From: Arcticibacter svalbardensis MN12-7
GTDB lineage: Bacteria > Bacteroidota > Bacteroidia > Sphingobacteriales > Sphingobacteriaceae
Direction of reading: 5' to 3'
Length of the DNA: 51,679 nucleotides
NCBI RefSeq assembly: GCF_000403135.1
Contig: NZ_AQPN01000149.1
Span: 1-51,679 of the forward strand
Positions 43,839 through 51,679 of the stretch are shown piece after piece. Positions within the stretch are counted from its first letter, which is position 1. Every line of letters begins with the position of its first letter. The notes under the pieces were generated by a model. The model ran no database searches. It was not told the origin of the DNA and saw only the letters and a program-made list of their open reading frames with translations. Made by a program: the position numbers and the translations under genes.

Positions 43839-43951
43839 GGAATATTTCTGGATCTATTGTAGAAGCTTTAAGGATTTATTTATGAGTTTTCAGGGATCTT
43901 CAATCAAACCTATCTTGATGATGACCCCGATAAGATACGATCTATGGGGAT

Positions 43952-43986
43952 AAAAGAAAGCCGGCTCTAACTAATTAGTGCCGGCT
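43952..43986 (-). terminator. GC-rich hairpin, terminator-like on the minus strand
   Basis: AGCCGGC (43959-43965) and GCCGGCT (43980-43986) form a perfect 7-bp GC stem. The loop contains the palindrome ACTAATTAGT. On the minus strand the stem is followed by TTCTTTTA. On the plus strand no T-run follows, so it is a poor terminator for apt. Confidence 0.5.
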
Positions 43987-44142
43987 ACTTATCAACAAAC
44001 TCAAACTCAAAGCAATTTTATTTTCGAATCTTAAAACGGGTGCAATCAGATGATGATCGCTGTTTTTAAGATGAAGATGATCTCTGTTATTTATCAATAC
44101 AAAAGTACTGGATGAAATCTTTATTGAAATGACACAGGTCAT
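43975..44142 (-). CDS. Possible small open frame ending in a terminator
   Basis: ATG at 44142 opens a 55-residue frame (start MTCVISIKISSSTF, end ALSLSLLISSRH) whose TAA lies in the loop of the hairpin at 43959-43986. The hairpin plus T-rich tail would end a minus-strand transcript just here, which is the only reason to list it. The product has no recognisable domain, and no promoter was found. It could equally be chance, or the mark of a small RNA. Confidence 0.2.
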   Translation of the reverse strand: MTCVISIKISSSTFVLINNRDHLHLKNSDHHLIAPVLRFENKIALSLSLLISSRH

Positions 44143-44703
44143 GTATCAAAAAGATTAAAGTCACAAAATAGGGAGTTGATCATCCATTCTCCTAATGGAT
44201 TGATCTGTAATAAAGAGTTTAATATTCAGACAGGAGACTGGTCTCCATTTATTATTACCAATTAACATGCAAAGTGTATTTTCGGGTTACATGAAGAACA
44301 TTTTAAACGGAATCGAGATCGATGACTTTCGGATAATACACAGGTGGCATTGAGCTACCTTTATATTGAGGATTCCAAAAAGATAGTAGTATGAGAGCGG
44401 TATAAGTCCAACTGTACCTAGTTTACATCGGACTTTCCTCGGAAATATGCTGCTTTCAATAAGATTTATGTCTGTTTCTTTGTATCATAAATTCACCAGA
44501 TTAAATCATCCATGTTAAAATATCAACTGATTTTGGGTGGTTAGGTTTTATGAGTTTAAACTGTGAACATAATGTTCTTTAAAATAATTTGGTTGCATAT
44601 TCAGGAAGATTCTGTTGTATGAGAGAAGATTTAGGAAGATTTAGTCTTTCTTTCGCTTTTATGATCGTTTAGTAAGTCCTTTACTTATATAAATCATAAG
44701 GAT

Positions 44704-45669
44704 ATGGCTACAATAGATAAAAAAGGGATGGTACATGGAACTGCAGGTTCGGTTACCTACCGTGAGTACCGGGGGAAGAACATCATCCAGGGGAAAGCAA
44801 AAGCATTTAAGCAGACTGAAAAAACTAAAAGGAGTGCTGCCGAGTTTGGCCTTTCAAGTTCTTCTGCAGCAGTGATTAGGACAGCATTTGAGCCGGCTTA
44901 TTTTTTTAAGGATGGAACGGCGGCTTACAGGAGTACGCAAATGGTGTACCGGTCGATATTGAATAATTTGAGTGGAGAGAAAGGGAAAAGGGATTTACAT
45001 GATGGGGATTTGTCTTTTTTACAGGGACTAGATTTTAATGCGAACAGTAAATTGCATGAAGTGTTGCAGATGAGCCATTCGGTAAGTAAAAGTGCGGAAG
45101 GTTTGGTGCGTGTTATCTTGGGTCCCTTGAACACCCAAATAGGAATCAAAAGGCCTAAAAATGCCAGCGGCGCCTATATGAAACACCGCATCAGGTTAAT
45201 GTTAGTTGCATTTAACTTCAGGCAAGAGTATTATGAAAACCTTGGGTTTAAGGATGTTGATTTGGAAGGATATCAAAGTATTGAAGATCAGGTTATCACC
45301 TTTAAAGAAGCAGTTCCTGCAGACTGTTTGGCAATGGTAAGTATGTCGCTAATGCTGTATTCCACTTTAGATCACACCAATGAAAGTGTTTTGTTGAATA
45401 GTGCAGCGTTCAGTCCTTGTGCTATAATTGGAACATTTCAATCCTTAAATCCTTCAGATTACCCTTTAAAAGAGGTTGATATGCAACCATCCAAATATTC
45501 GGGTAAAGAAGAAAAAATCAAAGAGATGTTTTATAAAGGCAATCTCCTGATGCTGAGGCTGGATTCGCAATTCGGTAAACAGGCTAACCTGTCCACTAAA
45601 ACGGTAAAATCAAAGCAGATGATTCCGGATGTTGTGCCACTAAAGCGTGTTTCGTTCAAAAAAAGTTGA
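44704..45669 (+). CDS. Uncharacterised 321-residue protein
   Basis: A 321-residue protein with no signal peptide, membrane helix or known catalytic motif. It begins MATIDKKGMVHGTAGSVTYR, then a basic segment (REYRGKNIIQGKAKAFKQTEKTKRSA). The remainder mixes predicted strands and helices and ends in a basic tail. The opening recalls a multi-copy family of hypothetical proteins seen in Sphingobacteriia, but I cannot name it with confidence. The ATG follows AAGGAT, an acceptable ribosome-binding site. It is flanked by non-coding DNA on the left and a CobW pseudogene on the right, so it stands alone in the accessory stretch. Confidence 0.6.
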   Translation: MATIDKKGMVHGTAGSVTYREYRGKNIIQGKAKAFKQTEKTKRSAAEFGLSSSSAAVIRTAFEPAYFFKDGTAAYRSTQMVYRSILNNLSGEKGKRDLHDGDLSFLQGLDFNANSKLHEVLQMSHSVSKSAEGLVRVILGPLNTQIGIKRPKNASGAYMKHRIRLMLVAFNFRQEYYENLGFKDVDLEGYQSIEDQVITFKEAVPADCLAMVSMSLMLYSTLDHTNESVLLNSAAFSPCAIIGTFQSLNPSDYPLKEVDMQPSKYSGKEEKIKEMFYKGNLLMLRLDSQFGKQANLSTKTVKSKQMIPDVVPLKRVSFKKS

Positions 45670-45780
45670 GTGGGGGCAAGATTTTTGATTAATGCACTGA
45701 GTATATGATATCCGATAAGGAAATAAGGTCAAATTAACATCCAAGAGAAGGTATTTACCTGAAGCTGTGGGGTGACGATC

Positions 45781-46194
45781 TAACCTAGTAATGGATGTCT
45801 TTGCTGTACCTTGAGCCAAGATTTTCACCAGCTGCTAGAGGATCTGTGGTACAGAAGATCAGAGTTTGACGAAGTTGTTATCGAAACCACCGGAATAGCC
45901 GATCCAGCGTCAGTAGCTGCACCATTTCTCACATCGCGCTCAATCCCGTATTATTATCAGTTGGAGCGGGTAATCTGTCGATAGATGCACACCATATCGA
46001 GACACAGTTAAAGGAAACAATGGAGGCTCGTCAGCAAATTAGTTTCAGTGAATGCCAGTTTAATTATAGAATACGGACAATAATGGGAAGAGGGGGAGCT
46101 GCCACAAAGTCGTATGGTATTCATTAGAAAAAGTCTTAAGCCGGAAGGATTCGAGCGTATGCTAAAGCAATGTTTGAAAGCTCCGCAGGATTAA
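45781..46194 (+). pseudogene. Decayed CobW/ZNG1-family GTP-binding metallochaperone gene
   Basis: Three fragments of one CobW-type protein lie head to tail in different frames. Fragment 1 (about 45787-45980) reads SNGCLCCTLSQDF with the family's CxCC metal motif, then FDEVVIETTGIADPAS. After a one-base shift near 45980, fragment 2 (to about 46040) gives IDAHHIETQLKETMEARQQI, the region after the DA(x)H motif. Fragment 3 (46039-46194) gives LVSVNASLIIEYGQ, a TAA stop at 46081, then WEEGELPQSRMVFI and a C-terminal FERMLKQCL, the normal end of the CobW C-terminal domain. The P-loop N terminus and the middle of the protein (including NKxD) are missing. Intact relatives are about 400 residues. It abuts a TonB-receptor locus, so it may be a relic of a metal-acquisition operon. 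Confidence 0.85.
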
Positions 46195-46271
46195 TATTCA
46201 AAAAGACATGCCCAACGATCAAAGCAAAGCACAACGCCCGACAAAACTGGACAGGCGTTATGCTAATGCTA

Positions 46272-48452
46272 CTAAAGTCTTAGTTTAATGCCTCCATTGA
46301 TTACAAAGCCATCAACAGGGGCATAAATATCCTTAAAGACAGGACTGGTAATGCTTCCAGTATAAATAGTGTCAAACTTTGTTTGGCGGGTATCCGTAAA
46401 GTTTTCGAAGTTTATGAAGAGCGAAAACCTCTCCCAAAGCTTTTCTGCCATTAGGCCAGCCGTCCAGTAACTCTTTCCAGTTGCACCGTCGTTCAGTTGC
46501 TGTTTGGAGAAATAGTAGGCCTCCAGGCCAATTTTCCACTCATCTTCCACTTCGTACATCAACACATTGTTCAGACGGTGCTTAGAAACCAGCGGATAAG
46601 TGGTACTGGCGCCTCTTGTGTGCTGGTTTACATCAGCCAGGGTATAACCAATGAATAATTTAAAGTCACTATAGGTGATCTTGGCGTTGGTTTCCATTCC
46701 TTTGGTATCCAGATTGCCCTTAGGCTGTAAATAAGCAAGGTTACTACCAGTCGCTGCCGTTAACAGTAAGGGATTATTAATACGGGTATAAAAGAACATT
46801 TGGTTTATACTGAATCCAACATTACCATCAAAGAGTGAAGTGTGGTAATTGACATCATAATTGGAACCATAAGAACGCTCTGCTTTAGTGTTTGCTACAT
46901 CAAGAGGCAATACATTTCTGAATTGGATGCGTTCGGCATCTTCAGTAAATACTGTCGGGGCTTTATAGCCCAATCCGCCACCTAAACGGGTCGAAAAATG
47001 TTCATTGATCTTCCATAACCCGGAGATTCGTGGCAAAAAGAAAAATCCGTATTCATTGTGATAATCCCCCCGGATGCCCGATTCGATACTGAATTTTTCC
47101 GATAGGTTCCAGGTGTTCTGCGCGAAGGCTCCAATGGTATTATAGTTGTAGCTCCTTAACGCAGTAGCACTATTTTGATCTTCTTTGAAACTGTCAGACA
47201 GGAAATTGACACCCAGTACCCATTCTGATTTTTCTCCGTTACGGCTATAATTGGCCTCACTGTAGGTAGATACCTGTGTACCTGAAAACAGGTAGTTTGG
47301 CAGGCCGATACTGCGGTCGTAATAGCTTACTGAATTGCGCAGGGTTAGCTTTTGGTTTTCACCTATTTTGTTATCCAGCTCGAGCTGGGAACTATAGCGC
47401 CCGGTTTTGTTCTCTTCAAAATAAGAGTGACTTGCGCTGCCGTTTCCTTTAACATATTCCACATCGCCGCCGATCCTTTTTTCTGTTGTTGCATTAATCC
47501 CAGCTGAGAGGGTGGTCGCATCATTGAAATAGAAATACAGTTTCGGGTTCAGGGTAAAGCGGTCAAATTTAGGAATGGCCGTCAGGCCGATATCGGCAGG
47601 ATCATAAGCCGTTCCTTTATTATATGCACCGTAAACGGTAATACCAAATTTATCAAATTTTTGCGCATAAAAGCTGCTGGCATCCAGTCCCAGTGCTGAA
47701 GTTCCGTTCAGCAGGAAATTAAGCTGCCGTTCTTCAGTCGGTTTTTTAGAAACTAGATTTACAAGACCGGCAATGGCACCACCACCATACAGCGTTGAGG
47801 ATGATCCTTTGATCACCTCGACCTGTTGCAAGTCCAGCGGGGCGATCTGTAACAGGCCAAGTCCACCGGAGAAACCGGAGTATAAAGGAAAGCCGTCACG
47901 GATGACCTGGGTGTATTTACCGTCTAGTCCCTGAATACGGATGGCCGAGTTACCACTTGTAGCGGATGTTTGCTGGGTCTGTATACCTGTACTTTCTGCT
48001 AGTAGCATACGGATATCACCCGGCTTCATGTTTCCTTTTTCGTCCAGTTCTTCACCTGCAATAACTTCTACACGCGTGGGGATATTATCTATTGTACGGC
48101 TGCTTCGGGTAGCGGTAATAACAACTTCTTCAAGATGTTCATCTTCTTCGTTGGGTTCTAATGAAACAATCAGCACCGTGTCCTGATTTAAAGGAAATGT
48201 TAAAGTATCCATCTTTGTCTGGTACCCAATGTAGCTATACTGAATGATCTGACTACCTGATGGGATATTGCTAATGGATAATGATCCGGAATCATCTGAT
48301 TTCGCGGTAATATTAGCTGTAGTTACTTTTATTGTAGCCCCTGCTAGCGGCTGATTTGTTTGGGCATTTTTAATAACTGCCTTGTACGTATTCTGGGCAA
48401 ATGCTACTGAGGTAATCCATAGCATAACCACTAATACAAATAATTTTTTCAT
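46272..48452 (-). CDS. TonB-dependent outer-membrane receptor
   Basis: A 726-residue receptor. Signal peptide MKKLFVLVVMLWITSVAFAQ, a CarboxypepD_reg-like beta domain (about residues 22-100), a TonB-box-like EEVVITATR, the plug (about 115-225, with VEVIKGSSSTLYGGGAIAGLVNLV) and a 22-strand barrel ending in INGGIKLRL. The ATG at 48452 precedes a clean signal peptide; a TTG nine codons upstream is not needed. It is the BtuB/FepA-like size class. The ligand is not readable, but the Cys/His-rich small protein encoded just upstream and the CobW relic just downstream suggest a metal or metal-chelate (inference). Confidence 0.93.
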   Translation of the reverse strand: MKKLFVLVVMLWITSVAFAQNTYKAVIKNAQTNQPLAGATIKVTTANITAKSDDSGSLSISNIPSGSQIIQYSYIGYQTKMDTLTFPLNQDTVLIVSLEPNEEDEHLEEVVITATRSSRTIDNIPTRVEVIAGEELDEKGNMKPGDIRMLLAESTGIQTQQTSATSGNSAIRIQGLDGKYTQVIRDGFPLYSGFSGGLGLLQIAPLDLQQVEVIKGSSSTLYGGGAIAGLVNLVSKKPTEERQLNFLLNGTSALGLDASSFYAQKFDKFGITVYGAYNKGTAYDPADIGLTAIPKFDRFTLNPKLYFYFNDATTLSAGINATTEKRIGGDVEYVKGNGSASHSYFEENKTGRYSSQLELDNKIGENQKLTLRNSVSYYDRSIGLPNYLFSGTQVSTYSEANYSRNGEKSEWVLGVNFLSDSFKEDQNSATALRSYNYNTIGAFAQNTWNLSEKFSIESGIRGDYHNEYGFFFLPRISGLWKINEHFSTRLGGGLGYKAPTVFTEDAERIQFRNVLPLDVANTKAERSYGSNYDVNYHTSLFDGNVGFSINQMFFYTRINNPLLLTAATGSNLAYLQPKGNLDTKGMETNAKITYSDFKLFIGYTLADVNQHTRGASTTYPLVSKHRLNNVLMYEVEDEWKIGLEAYYFSKQQLNDGATGKSYWTAGLMAEKLWERFSLFINFENFTDTRQTKFDTIYTGSITSPVFKDIYAPVDGFVINGGIKLRL

Positions 48453-48511
48453 GATATTATTTATAATAAGTGTTTTCAAAAAAACAGTCTACATAGACTG
48501 CGATAGGAAAA

Positions 48512-48823
48512 TCAACTTAATTTAGGCGGTTGCCAGATAGAAGATAAGGATTTCGGTAGTTCATCATGAATATGGAGGGTCTTATGCTGAACTGGTATAG
48601 CTTGCAATCCAAATGTTATAGCCGACACTATGTTAAGTGAAAAGCCAACACATGCACCACATACATAAAACGGTGAGCAGTCGCTGCACCTGTCATCGCA
48701 ACTATGACTTATTTTATGCCCAATTTCTATTGAATGCACCTCAGATACCTCATCTAATGCACAGCAAGGTATTAAAGTCAATCCAAGAACGATTGTCGAC
48801 AGAAAGAAGGCGAATAATTTCAC
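48512..48823 (-). CDS. Small exported Cys/His-rich protein (DUF6660-like)
   Basis: A 103-residue protein with an N-terminal signal or lipoprotein-like segment (MKLFAFFLSTIVLGLTLIPCC), a Cys/His cluster (HKISHSCDDRCSDCSPFYVCGACVG) and the ending SIWQPPKLS. The layout and the IWQPPK tail recall the DUF6660 family, often found beside TonB-dependent receptors in Bacteroidota. The cysteines and histidines suggest metal binding in the periplasm. The start codon is GTG at 48823. It precedes the receptor gene by about 60 nt on the same strand and is probably co-transcribed with it. Confidence 0.7.
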   Translation of the reverse strand: MKLFAFFLSTIVLGLTLIPCCALDEVSEVHSIEIGHKISHSCDDRCSDCSPFYVCGACVGFSLNIVSAITFGLQAIPVQHKTLHIHDELPKSLSSIWQPPKLS

Positions 48824-50237: not shown

Positions 50238-50265
50238 CCGTATAGTGTATATTTACGCCATACGG
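50238..50265 (+). promoter_or_regulatory. Probable higBA operator/promoter
   Basis: CCGTAT (50238-50243) and ATACGG (50260-50265) are a perfect inverted repeat with a 16-nt spacer, 6 nt before the higB ATG. The spacer holds TATATTTA (50248-50255), a one-mismatch TAnnTTTG box. A HigA dimer bound here would block the promoter, the usual autoregulation of such modules. Confidence 0.55.
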
Positions 50266-50271
50266 TCTATT

Positions 50272-50556
50272 ATGATTGAAACTATTAAGAGTATGGCCTT
50301 AAGGCTTCTTTGGGAGAAGGGGGGTGGTAGTAAGCTGCCTCCGCTGCAGTTAAAAAAAATAAAGCTCATTTTGCAAATTATTGATGATTTAGAAGAAGTA
50401 CCGGAAGATCTTGCAAATTTAGTTTCATTTAGGCCGCATCCTTTAAAGGGCAACCTTCAGGGATTTTGGAGCTTAGATGTTACAGGTAATTATCGAATTG
50501 TCTTCCGCTTTGAAAATAAATCTGCTTTTGACTTAGATTATTTAGATACACACTAA
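50272..50556 (+). CDS. higB: HigB-type toxin (RelE/ParE superfamily mRNA interferase)
   Basis: A 94-residue toxin from ATG 50272 with the HigB/plasmid-killer pattern: LRLLWEKGGGSKLPP, FRPHPLKGNLQGFWSLDVTGNYRIVFRFENKSAFDLDYLDTH. HigB toxins cut mRNA on the ribosome. The conserved G-FWSLDV-x-x-NYRIVF core is intact. A GTG nine codons upstream lies within the palindrome and is a poorer start. The toxin gene comes first and the antitoxin follows after one base, the typical higBA order. Confidence 0.88.
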   Translation: MIETIKSMALRLLWEKGGGSKLPPLQLKKIKLILQIIDDLEEVPEDLANLVSFRPHPLKGNLQGFWSLDVTGNYRIVFRFENKSAFDLDYLDTH

Positions 50557-50557
50557 T

Positions 50558-50854
50558 ATGAAAAGAGAAATGGAATTAATCCACCCAGGGGAAATATTAA
50601 AGATTGAAATTGTTGAAGGACGTAATTTAACCATTGCTAAAGCCGCTGGTCTGTTAGGCGTCACCAGACCTACATTGTCTAATATAATAAATGGTAAGGC
50701 TTCTATAACACCCAATATAGCCTTAAGAGTTGAAACAGTGTTTGGAGGGGCTGCAAGATTTTGGGTTCGTTTGCAATCATCATATGACCTATCATTAGCT
50801 AAAAAAGGGTTTATGGAGAATCCACCTAAAATTGCACGCTATAATTTCGTATGA
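50558..50854 (+). CDS. higA: HigA-type antitoxin (XRE family)
   Basis: A 98-residue antitoxin with the HigA start (ELIHPGEILKIEIVEGRNLT) and an XRE helix-turn-helix (IAKAAGLLGVTRPTLSNIINGKASITPNIALRVETVF) followed by WVRLQSSYDL. It should neutralise HigB and repress the operon through the palindrome upstream. It starts 1 nt after the higB stop. The pair looks intact. Its position beside an IS and decaying genes fits its usual mobile, stabilising role. Confidence 0.9.
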   Translation: MKREMELIHPGEILKIEIVEGRNLTIAKAAGLLGVTRPTLSNIINGKASITPNIALRVETVFGGAARFWVRLQSSYDLSLAKKGFMENPPKIARYNFV

Positions 50855-50879: not shown

Positions 50880-51679
50880 GGAGGTGGAAATTCATAAGGG
50901 GGCTTCCAATAACCTACCTTAATTTATGAGTACAAAAAATCGAATAAGCGCGCATAAATGATTAAATTTAGATATGAAAAAACGGGAAAAAACTCTCTTT
51001 GATTTTATGGATCATCAGGATAAATTAGGCAATTATAAAGACCCTTTAAAAACACTTGATGAGCATATAGATTGGGAGGGATTCCGTGAATTAATCAAGA
51101 GTGGTTTTGCTACAATAGATTATAGTAAAGGAGGCCGCCCACCTTATGATAAACTGATGTTGTTTAAGATCCTGGTGCTGCAGAACCTATATGGTTTATT
51201 GATGCCCAGACCGAGTTTCAGATCGTAGACCGTCTGACTTTCATGCGTTTCTTAGGTTTAGGGCTGAATGACCAGATCCCTGATCAGAATACAATCCGTA
51301 ATTCCAGGGAAGCATTGATCATTAACAATGTACTTGATTCCCTGTTTGTAGCCTTTAACAACAGGCTAGAAAAAGCAGGCATGTATACTAAAAAAGGGAG
51401 TATGGTAGATGCCAGTTTTGTCACTGCTCCTAGGCAACGTAACAGCAGGGAAGAAAACGAGCAACTGAAAGAGGGCGATCTTCCTGAAGACTGGAGCTTA
51501 AACAAGATGAGGCATAAGGATACCGATGCGGACTGGACAAAGAAGAACAATCAGGTCTATTTCGGCTATAAGAACCATGTAAAGGTTGATATTGGCTCTA
51601 AACTGATCACCGGATTTGAGACCAGTTCTGCAAGTGTGCATGATAGTGAGGTACTGCAGGATCTGCTTACTGAAGAAGA
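50880..51679 (+). mobile_element. Left part of an IS5-family insertion sequence
   Basis: The transposase frame begins about 95-110 nt after a GG-rich segment (50879-50911, GGAGGTGG... GGGGGCTTCC) that could contain the left terminal inverted repeat. The right end is beyond the window, so neither the inverted repeats nor a target duplication can be confirmed, and the left boundary is approximate. Confidence 0.6.
50974..51679 (+). pseudogene. IS5-family transposase, frameshifted and cut by the window end
   Basis: ATG 50974 gives the N-terminal DUF772-type region of an IS5 transposase (MKKREKTLFDFMDHQDKLGN to KLMLFKILVLQNLYGL). The frame is lost at about 51199 and stops at 51226-51228. One frame over, the protein continues as DAQTEFQIVDRLTFMRFLGL, NDQIPDQNTIRN, then GSMVDASFVTAPRQRNSREE (first catalytic Asp) and QVYFGYKNHVKVDI, and runs off the window end. 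Restoring one base in GGTTTATTGAT gives the expected YGLSDAQ. IS5 elements sometimes use frameshifting, but this position, before the DDE domain, looks more like inactivation. Later catalytic residues lie outside the window. Confidence 0.85.

Follow-up and report, generated by a model that had tools for sequence, protein, structure and literature searches.

The window analysed here, the whole stretch of 51,679 nucleotides, is one entire contig (C149) of the draft genome of Arcticibacter svalbardensis MN12-7 (G000; 4.69 Mb, 149 contigs, 99.99% complete) and carries what is very probably the pseudogene of a YjiA-like CobW/COG0523 GTPase of about 325 amino acids, what is left of a gene, probably zinc-related, that this genome has lost. 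The remains consist of three pieces on the forward strand (45787-46182), which follow each other in the expected order in frames 1, 3 and 1 (Table 1). A preliminary description of the sequence had proposed a CobW-family relic at 45781-46194 made up of three frame-shifted fragments, retaining a GCLCC motif, the ETTGIADPAS and DAHHIE segments and the typical C-terminal end, with the P-loop and the middle deleted. Translated searches bear out the family and all of these segments; the three pieces stand, although they occupy two frames and not three, and while the end agrees with a stop codon, the start does not, as similarity begins at 45787 and base 45781 is the first of a stop codon after which the frame of the GCLCC motif opens.

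Upon search of the whole genome, the PF02492 profile matched 45727-45975 on the forward strand with an E value of 1.4e-12 and two stops within the match. This region is the sole PF02492 match in the draft genome, and the second cobW copy that the preliminary description had advised looking for is not among its genes. The start of the match at 45727 is probably an over-extension through two stops, because the region upstream of 45787 is unlike the 5' ends of cobW genes. As a reference served the closest intact gene found, which belongs to a genome of another genus of the same family (G194, locus L035) and encodes a protein of 322 amino acids that matches PF02492 (E 6e-49) and PF07683 (E 1e-16). 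With this protein as a tblastn query, pieces A and B are linked with an E value of 8e-33, while the control, a reversed window searched with four intact proteins, gave no match at E<=1. About 40% of the gene survives, including the GCxCC metal-binding motif, present as GCLCC at 45793-45807 in frame 1; as for the C-terminal domain (PF07683), just the last ~46 residues of the protein are left, with one stop inside.

Table 1. Features of the relic, its neighbourhood and related loci (window positions unless a locus is named).
Feature	Position	Strand	Evidence or remark
Relic piece A, residues ~64-127, GCLCC and ETTGIADPAS, frame 1	45787..45978	+	tblastn with G194 protein, 78%; Pfam PF02492
One-base deletion, frame 1 to 3	45979..45980	+	single gap in DNA alignment to L035; tblastn frame change
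Relic piece B, residues ~129-152, IDAHHIE...ISFSE, frame 3	45981..46052	+	tblastn with G194 protein, 75%
Deletion junction, 7 bases aligning to both deletion sides	46045..46051	+	shared by DNA alignments 45787-46051 and 46045-46182
Relic piece C, residues ~277-322, C-terminal end, frame 1	46045..46182	+	tblastn with G194 protein, 67%, E 7e-15
Stop codon TAA closing the relic's last frame, near the gene's original end	46192..46194	+	
Colinearity breakpoint with sister species G002	45676	.	blastn, L072 9213-14000 against window 45675-40958, 83%
TonB-dependent receptor	46272..48479	-	Pfam
DUF6660 Cys/His-rich protein, the receptor's partner	48512..48823	-	Pfam PF20365, E 5.5e-7
CxxxxC protein	L035:8187-8432 (-); L036:8878-9165 (+); L038:8281-8502 (+); L039:14192-14443 (+)		
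P-type ATPase with HMA domain and AcrB-type pump	L064		heavy-metal-type genes
HMA-domain reductase	L065		heavy-metal-type gene
HMA protein	L063		heavy-metal-type gene

The lesions are several and separate. Besides the one-base deletion and a premature stop at 46081 in piece C, the segment between the DAxxIE motif and the C-terminal end is absent through an internal deletion of ~380 bases, which in the DNA alignment corresponds to positions 456-835 of the L035 gene. The 7 bases shared at the junction may stem from a deletion between short repeats, but the sequence of the intact relative is not the same at this place. The first 63 codons including the Walker A motif (P-loop) are undetectable upstream of 45787, as the 117 bases before this position align with four intact 5' ends no better than shuffled sequences do (the score is reached in 39, 247, 263 and 129 of 300 shuffles), and tblastn with the G194 protein gave no significant N-terminal match anywhere in the window. 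Nor does the gene-free stretch 43839-44703, where the lost 5' end might lie had the neighbouring gene orf321 split cobW, show a clear trace of it (the score against the four intact 5' ends is reached in 90, 3, 46 and 13 of 100 shuffles, the value of 3 being one of four tests). The frame that opens after the stop at 45781 contains no ATG, GTG or TTG ahead of the GCLCC motif. The relic is thus a pseudogene and the gene is dead: with no usual start codon and with these lesions, neither a GTPase nor a CxCC peptide can be made from the usual start codons, and the event looks like ordinary gene loss.

Two readings would nevertheless keep the gene, or a part of it, alive. A shortened but functional small CxCC protein, or translation of a frameshifted product, could draw on the 66 codons over which frame 1 is open around the intact cysteine motif, but the lack of a start codon in this frame, the absence of the P-loop and the alteration of 9 of the 72 residues that do not vary among four intact relatives make this extremely improbable. 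That an intact gene was broken by an assembly or sequencing artefact is hardly more credible and likewise very improbable; the assembly is a draft in 149 contigs, but the lesions are multiple and separate, comprising the loss of the 5' end and of ~380 internal bases, and many amino acids have changed at conserved sites. The draft state bears on one point nearby, where the sequence may be wrongly joined at 45676.

A tree built on 129 aligned columns, which left out two proteins shorter than 200 amino acids (L022, L032), places the relic together with the G194 gene; the two are split from the rest with 100% bootstrap, with branch lengths of 0.33 for the relic versus 0.08 for G194. With L037, L036 and L038 as outgroups, 13, 12 and 12 amino-acid changes fall on the line of the relic versus 4, 6 and 5 on that of G194. 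The base changes at codon positions 1/2/3 amount with the same outgroups to 11/8/25, 16/9/31 and 15/11/28 on the line of the relic and to 10/4/17, 10/3/15 and 10/3/20 on that of G194. Because third codon positions still lead, much as they do on the G194 line, although the protein changed faster, a large part of the divergence seems to date from a time when the gene still worked. The relic retains 63 of the 72 residues invariant in the four intact relatives.

What the lost gene did can be approached through its intact relatives. A search with a 49-residue fragment found COG0523 relatives in 71 of the 201 genomes of the family collection, the relic counted. Among the five nearest intact cobW loci (L035-L039), four hold a Fur-family gene, the distance between cobW and this Fur/Zur-type gene being about 0.2 kb (L035), 0.9 kb (L038), 6 kb (L039) and 8 kb (L037), and none was seen in L036. 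Three loci also contain ABC and FtsX-type genes, recognized by Pfam in L035 and by resemblance in L037 and L039. According to one report, Zur-regulated COG0523 genes cluster with zur and zinc transporters (PMC2770081). The Fur-type protein beside the G194 cobW gene has a relative of at least 49% identity in 124 of the 201 genomes; such a relative occurs in 56 of the 71 COG0523-positive genomes versus 68 of the remaining 130 (Fisher p 2.4e-4, uncorrected for kinship, with the 49% identity line chosen after the list had been inspected and the relic entered as COG0523-positive). The NCBIfam ZigA model scored far under its cut-off, as did both the Fur and the Zur models on the Fur/Zur-type protein, and the name Zur is used here on the basis of family membership and context. 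Most of the closest intact genes have a Fur/Zur-type regulator within about 8 kb, and by analogy the lost gene was probably a zinc-responsive metallochaperone.

Four of the cobW loci further encode an unnamed protein of ~70-95 amino acids with a CxxxxC motif (CITVDC and similar), which has no Pfam match (copies of L035 and L036) and no NCBIfam match (copies of L035 and L038). Relatives of this protein occur in 28 of the 201 family genomes, the present genome not among them, and in 23 of these genomes a COG0523 fragment match, of one length class or the other, is located no more than 1 kb from it. The CxxxxC protein is a possible partner of COG0523 chaperones.

To the preliminary description, the position of the relic next to the TonB-dependent receptor and the Cys/His-rich protein suggested a metal-uptake locus that had once been larger, and it proposed to look for relatives in which an intact gene adjoins this receptor. 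The pair of receptor and DUF6660 protein recurs in the sister species G002 and in G074, G065, G093 and G043 with receptors 70-85% identical, the DUF6660 partner in G002 being just 24% identical; these five loci comprise the one match from the genus and the four best DUF6660 matches, DUF6660 being matched in 95 of the 201 genomes. No cobW match at E<=0.1 was found in the 13.6-15 kb around each of the five receptor relatives, three of which have heavy-metal-type genes in their loci (Table 1), and the nearest intact cobW genes stand in other surroundings. A former locus joining cobW, the receptor and the DUF6660 gene is therefore improbable, even though the three are adjacent today and two of the five intact cobW loci (L037, L038) have a TonB receptor no more than 2 kb from the gene, as these receptors are distant, with 27-28% identity to the receptor of the window over ~240 residues. 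Moreover, the relic and the receptor gene are convergent and therefore not parts of one operon. The receptor is probably an unrelated neighbour from outside the original locus of the relic, which corrects the step from adjacency to a shared metal-uptake locus. No literature on DUF6660 was found.

On its left side, the window is colinear with the sister species through apt, the gene-free stretch and orf321 up to 45675, beyond which G002 has other genes, and the relic sits just to the right of this end of colinearity. In G001, G003, G004 and G005 other genes follow apt, and their stretches are without orf321. As to the other end of the rearrangement, the gene to the right of the breakpoint in G002 has just 37-40% identical paralogues in the present genome. 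The segment 45676-51679 matches 16 plasmid records with 60-80% identity, and the 15 of these matches that were listed cover the receptor, toxin-gene and transposase parts. With at most two candidates scored per genome, the DNA of the relic (45676-46270) found in the 201 genomes, beyond the window itself, three matches of 37-50 bases.

Further features of the surroundings deserve mention in their own right. The orf321 gene (44704-45669, forward strand; 321 amino acids, no Pfam match) is present in at least two copies in the genome, the second of which (L061:3275-4240, reverse strand) is 79% identical and has a P-type ATPase gene ~4 kb away; the orf321 of G002, beside apt, is 80% identical. The 865 bases of 43839-44703 between apt and orf321 are without a listed gene and align with the sister species, with one 34-base match (G003) in the remaining members of the genus, and may be the remains of another gene. 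A HigB-like toxin and its helix-turn-helix partner are encoded at 50245-50854, followed at 50974-51679, up to the contig end, by transposase pieces in two frames with a DUF772 match just below the cut-off.

With respect to origin, a fragment search found neither cobW nor a further relic in any of the five other members of the genus; PF02492 matches one gene in G004, which its neighbours let one read as HypB, and gives weak matches in G004 and G005. The present genome has two Fur-family (PF01475) genes, both on contigs other than the window: a Fur-like gene on C8 and another gene on C23 that is 39% identical to the G194 regulator and adjoins a P-type ATPase gene. Relatives of the G194 regulator with 59-62% identity exist in the four other genus members G001, G003, G004 and G005, while G000 and its sister species G002 have no close relative, the best being a paralogue of 38-39%. 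In G003, G004 and G005 the Fur/Zur-type gene is adjacent to a probable ispG gene (stretches L169, L171 and L168, respectively). As four of the six genus members have the Zur-type relative, an ancestral zinc system probably existed in the genus. One tentative scenario, on balance rather unlikely, takes the relic as the last visible trace of a dismantled zinc-starvation response, in which the Zur-type repressor would have been lost in the common ancestor with the sister species and the deregulated COG0523 chaperone would then have decayed.

Alternatively, and compatible with the pseudogene reading since it concerns only where the gene came from, cobW could have been gained horizontally and then decayed, which falls slightly short of an even chance. 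The relic and the G194 cobW gene are 74% identical (128 sites), above the 61% of apt between the same two genomes, and the G194 gene is only 59% and 62% identical over its full length (66% and 65% on the sites of the relic) to those of G173 and G154 from its own genus, where apt reaches 76%; the absence of cobW from the five other examined members of the genus of the relic points the same way. Against this, a single reference gene was compared, the Zur-type relative in four of six genus members makes an ancestral zinc system probable, and patchy loss can produce the same pattern. Gain and loss thus have about equal weight.

For the pseudogene of a probably zinc-related GTPase the course of events may be pictured as follows. 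The intact ancestor would have been a zinc-responsive metallochaperone, as its relatives near Fur/Zur-type regulators suggest; selection would have been lost rather late, after or along with the loss of Zur-type control in the lineage; and rearrangement or gene gain would have placed the remnant between orf321 and the receptor/DUF6660 pair, with a transposase at the contig end ~4.7 kb from the relic. The order of these events is a guess, because the fragment search detected neither cobW nor a relic in the other members of the genus (0 of 5). The case adds a gene loss that gene callers probably leave unlisted, and one data point on the turnover of COG0523 and Zur-type genes in this bacterial family (71 and 124 of 201 genomes).

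In comparison with known systems, the neighbours of the relic belong to the TonB receptor and DUF6660 pair, the five other examined loci of which are without cobW. Four of the five closest intact cobW genes resemble the Zur-linked COG0523 genes of the YciC/ZigA kind (PMC2770081) in having a Fur/Zur-type gene in their vicinity, whereas the window holds no such regulator. In a case described in PMC5786701, it is zupT that is broken, with the COG0523 gene retained. The intact gene nearest to the relic encodes a protein that matches YjiA, a family member of solved structure (PDB 1NIJ, 4IXM, 4IXN), over 300 residues. Compared to COG0523/CobW GTPases with their PF02492 and PF07683 domains, the relic is without the P-loop and the middle third and carries a frameshift and a stop, but it shares with them the GCxCC motif, the ETTG segment, the order of motifs and the C-terminal end.
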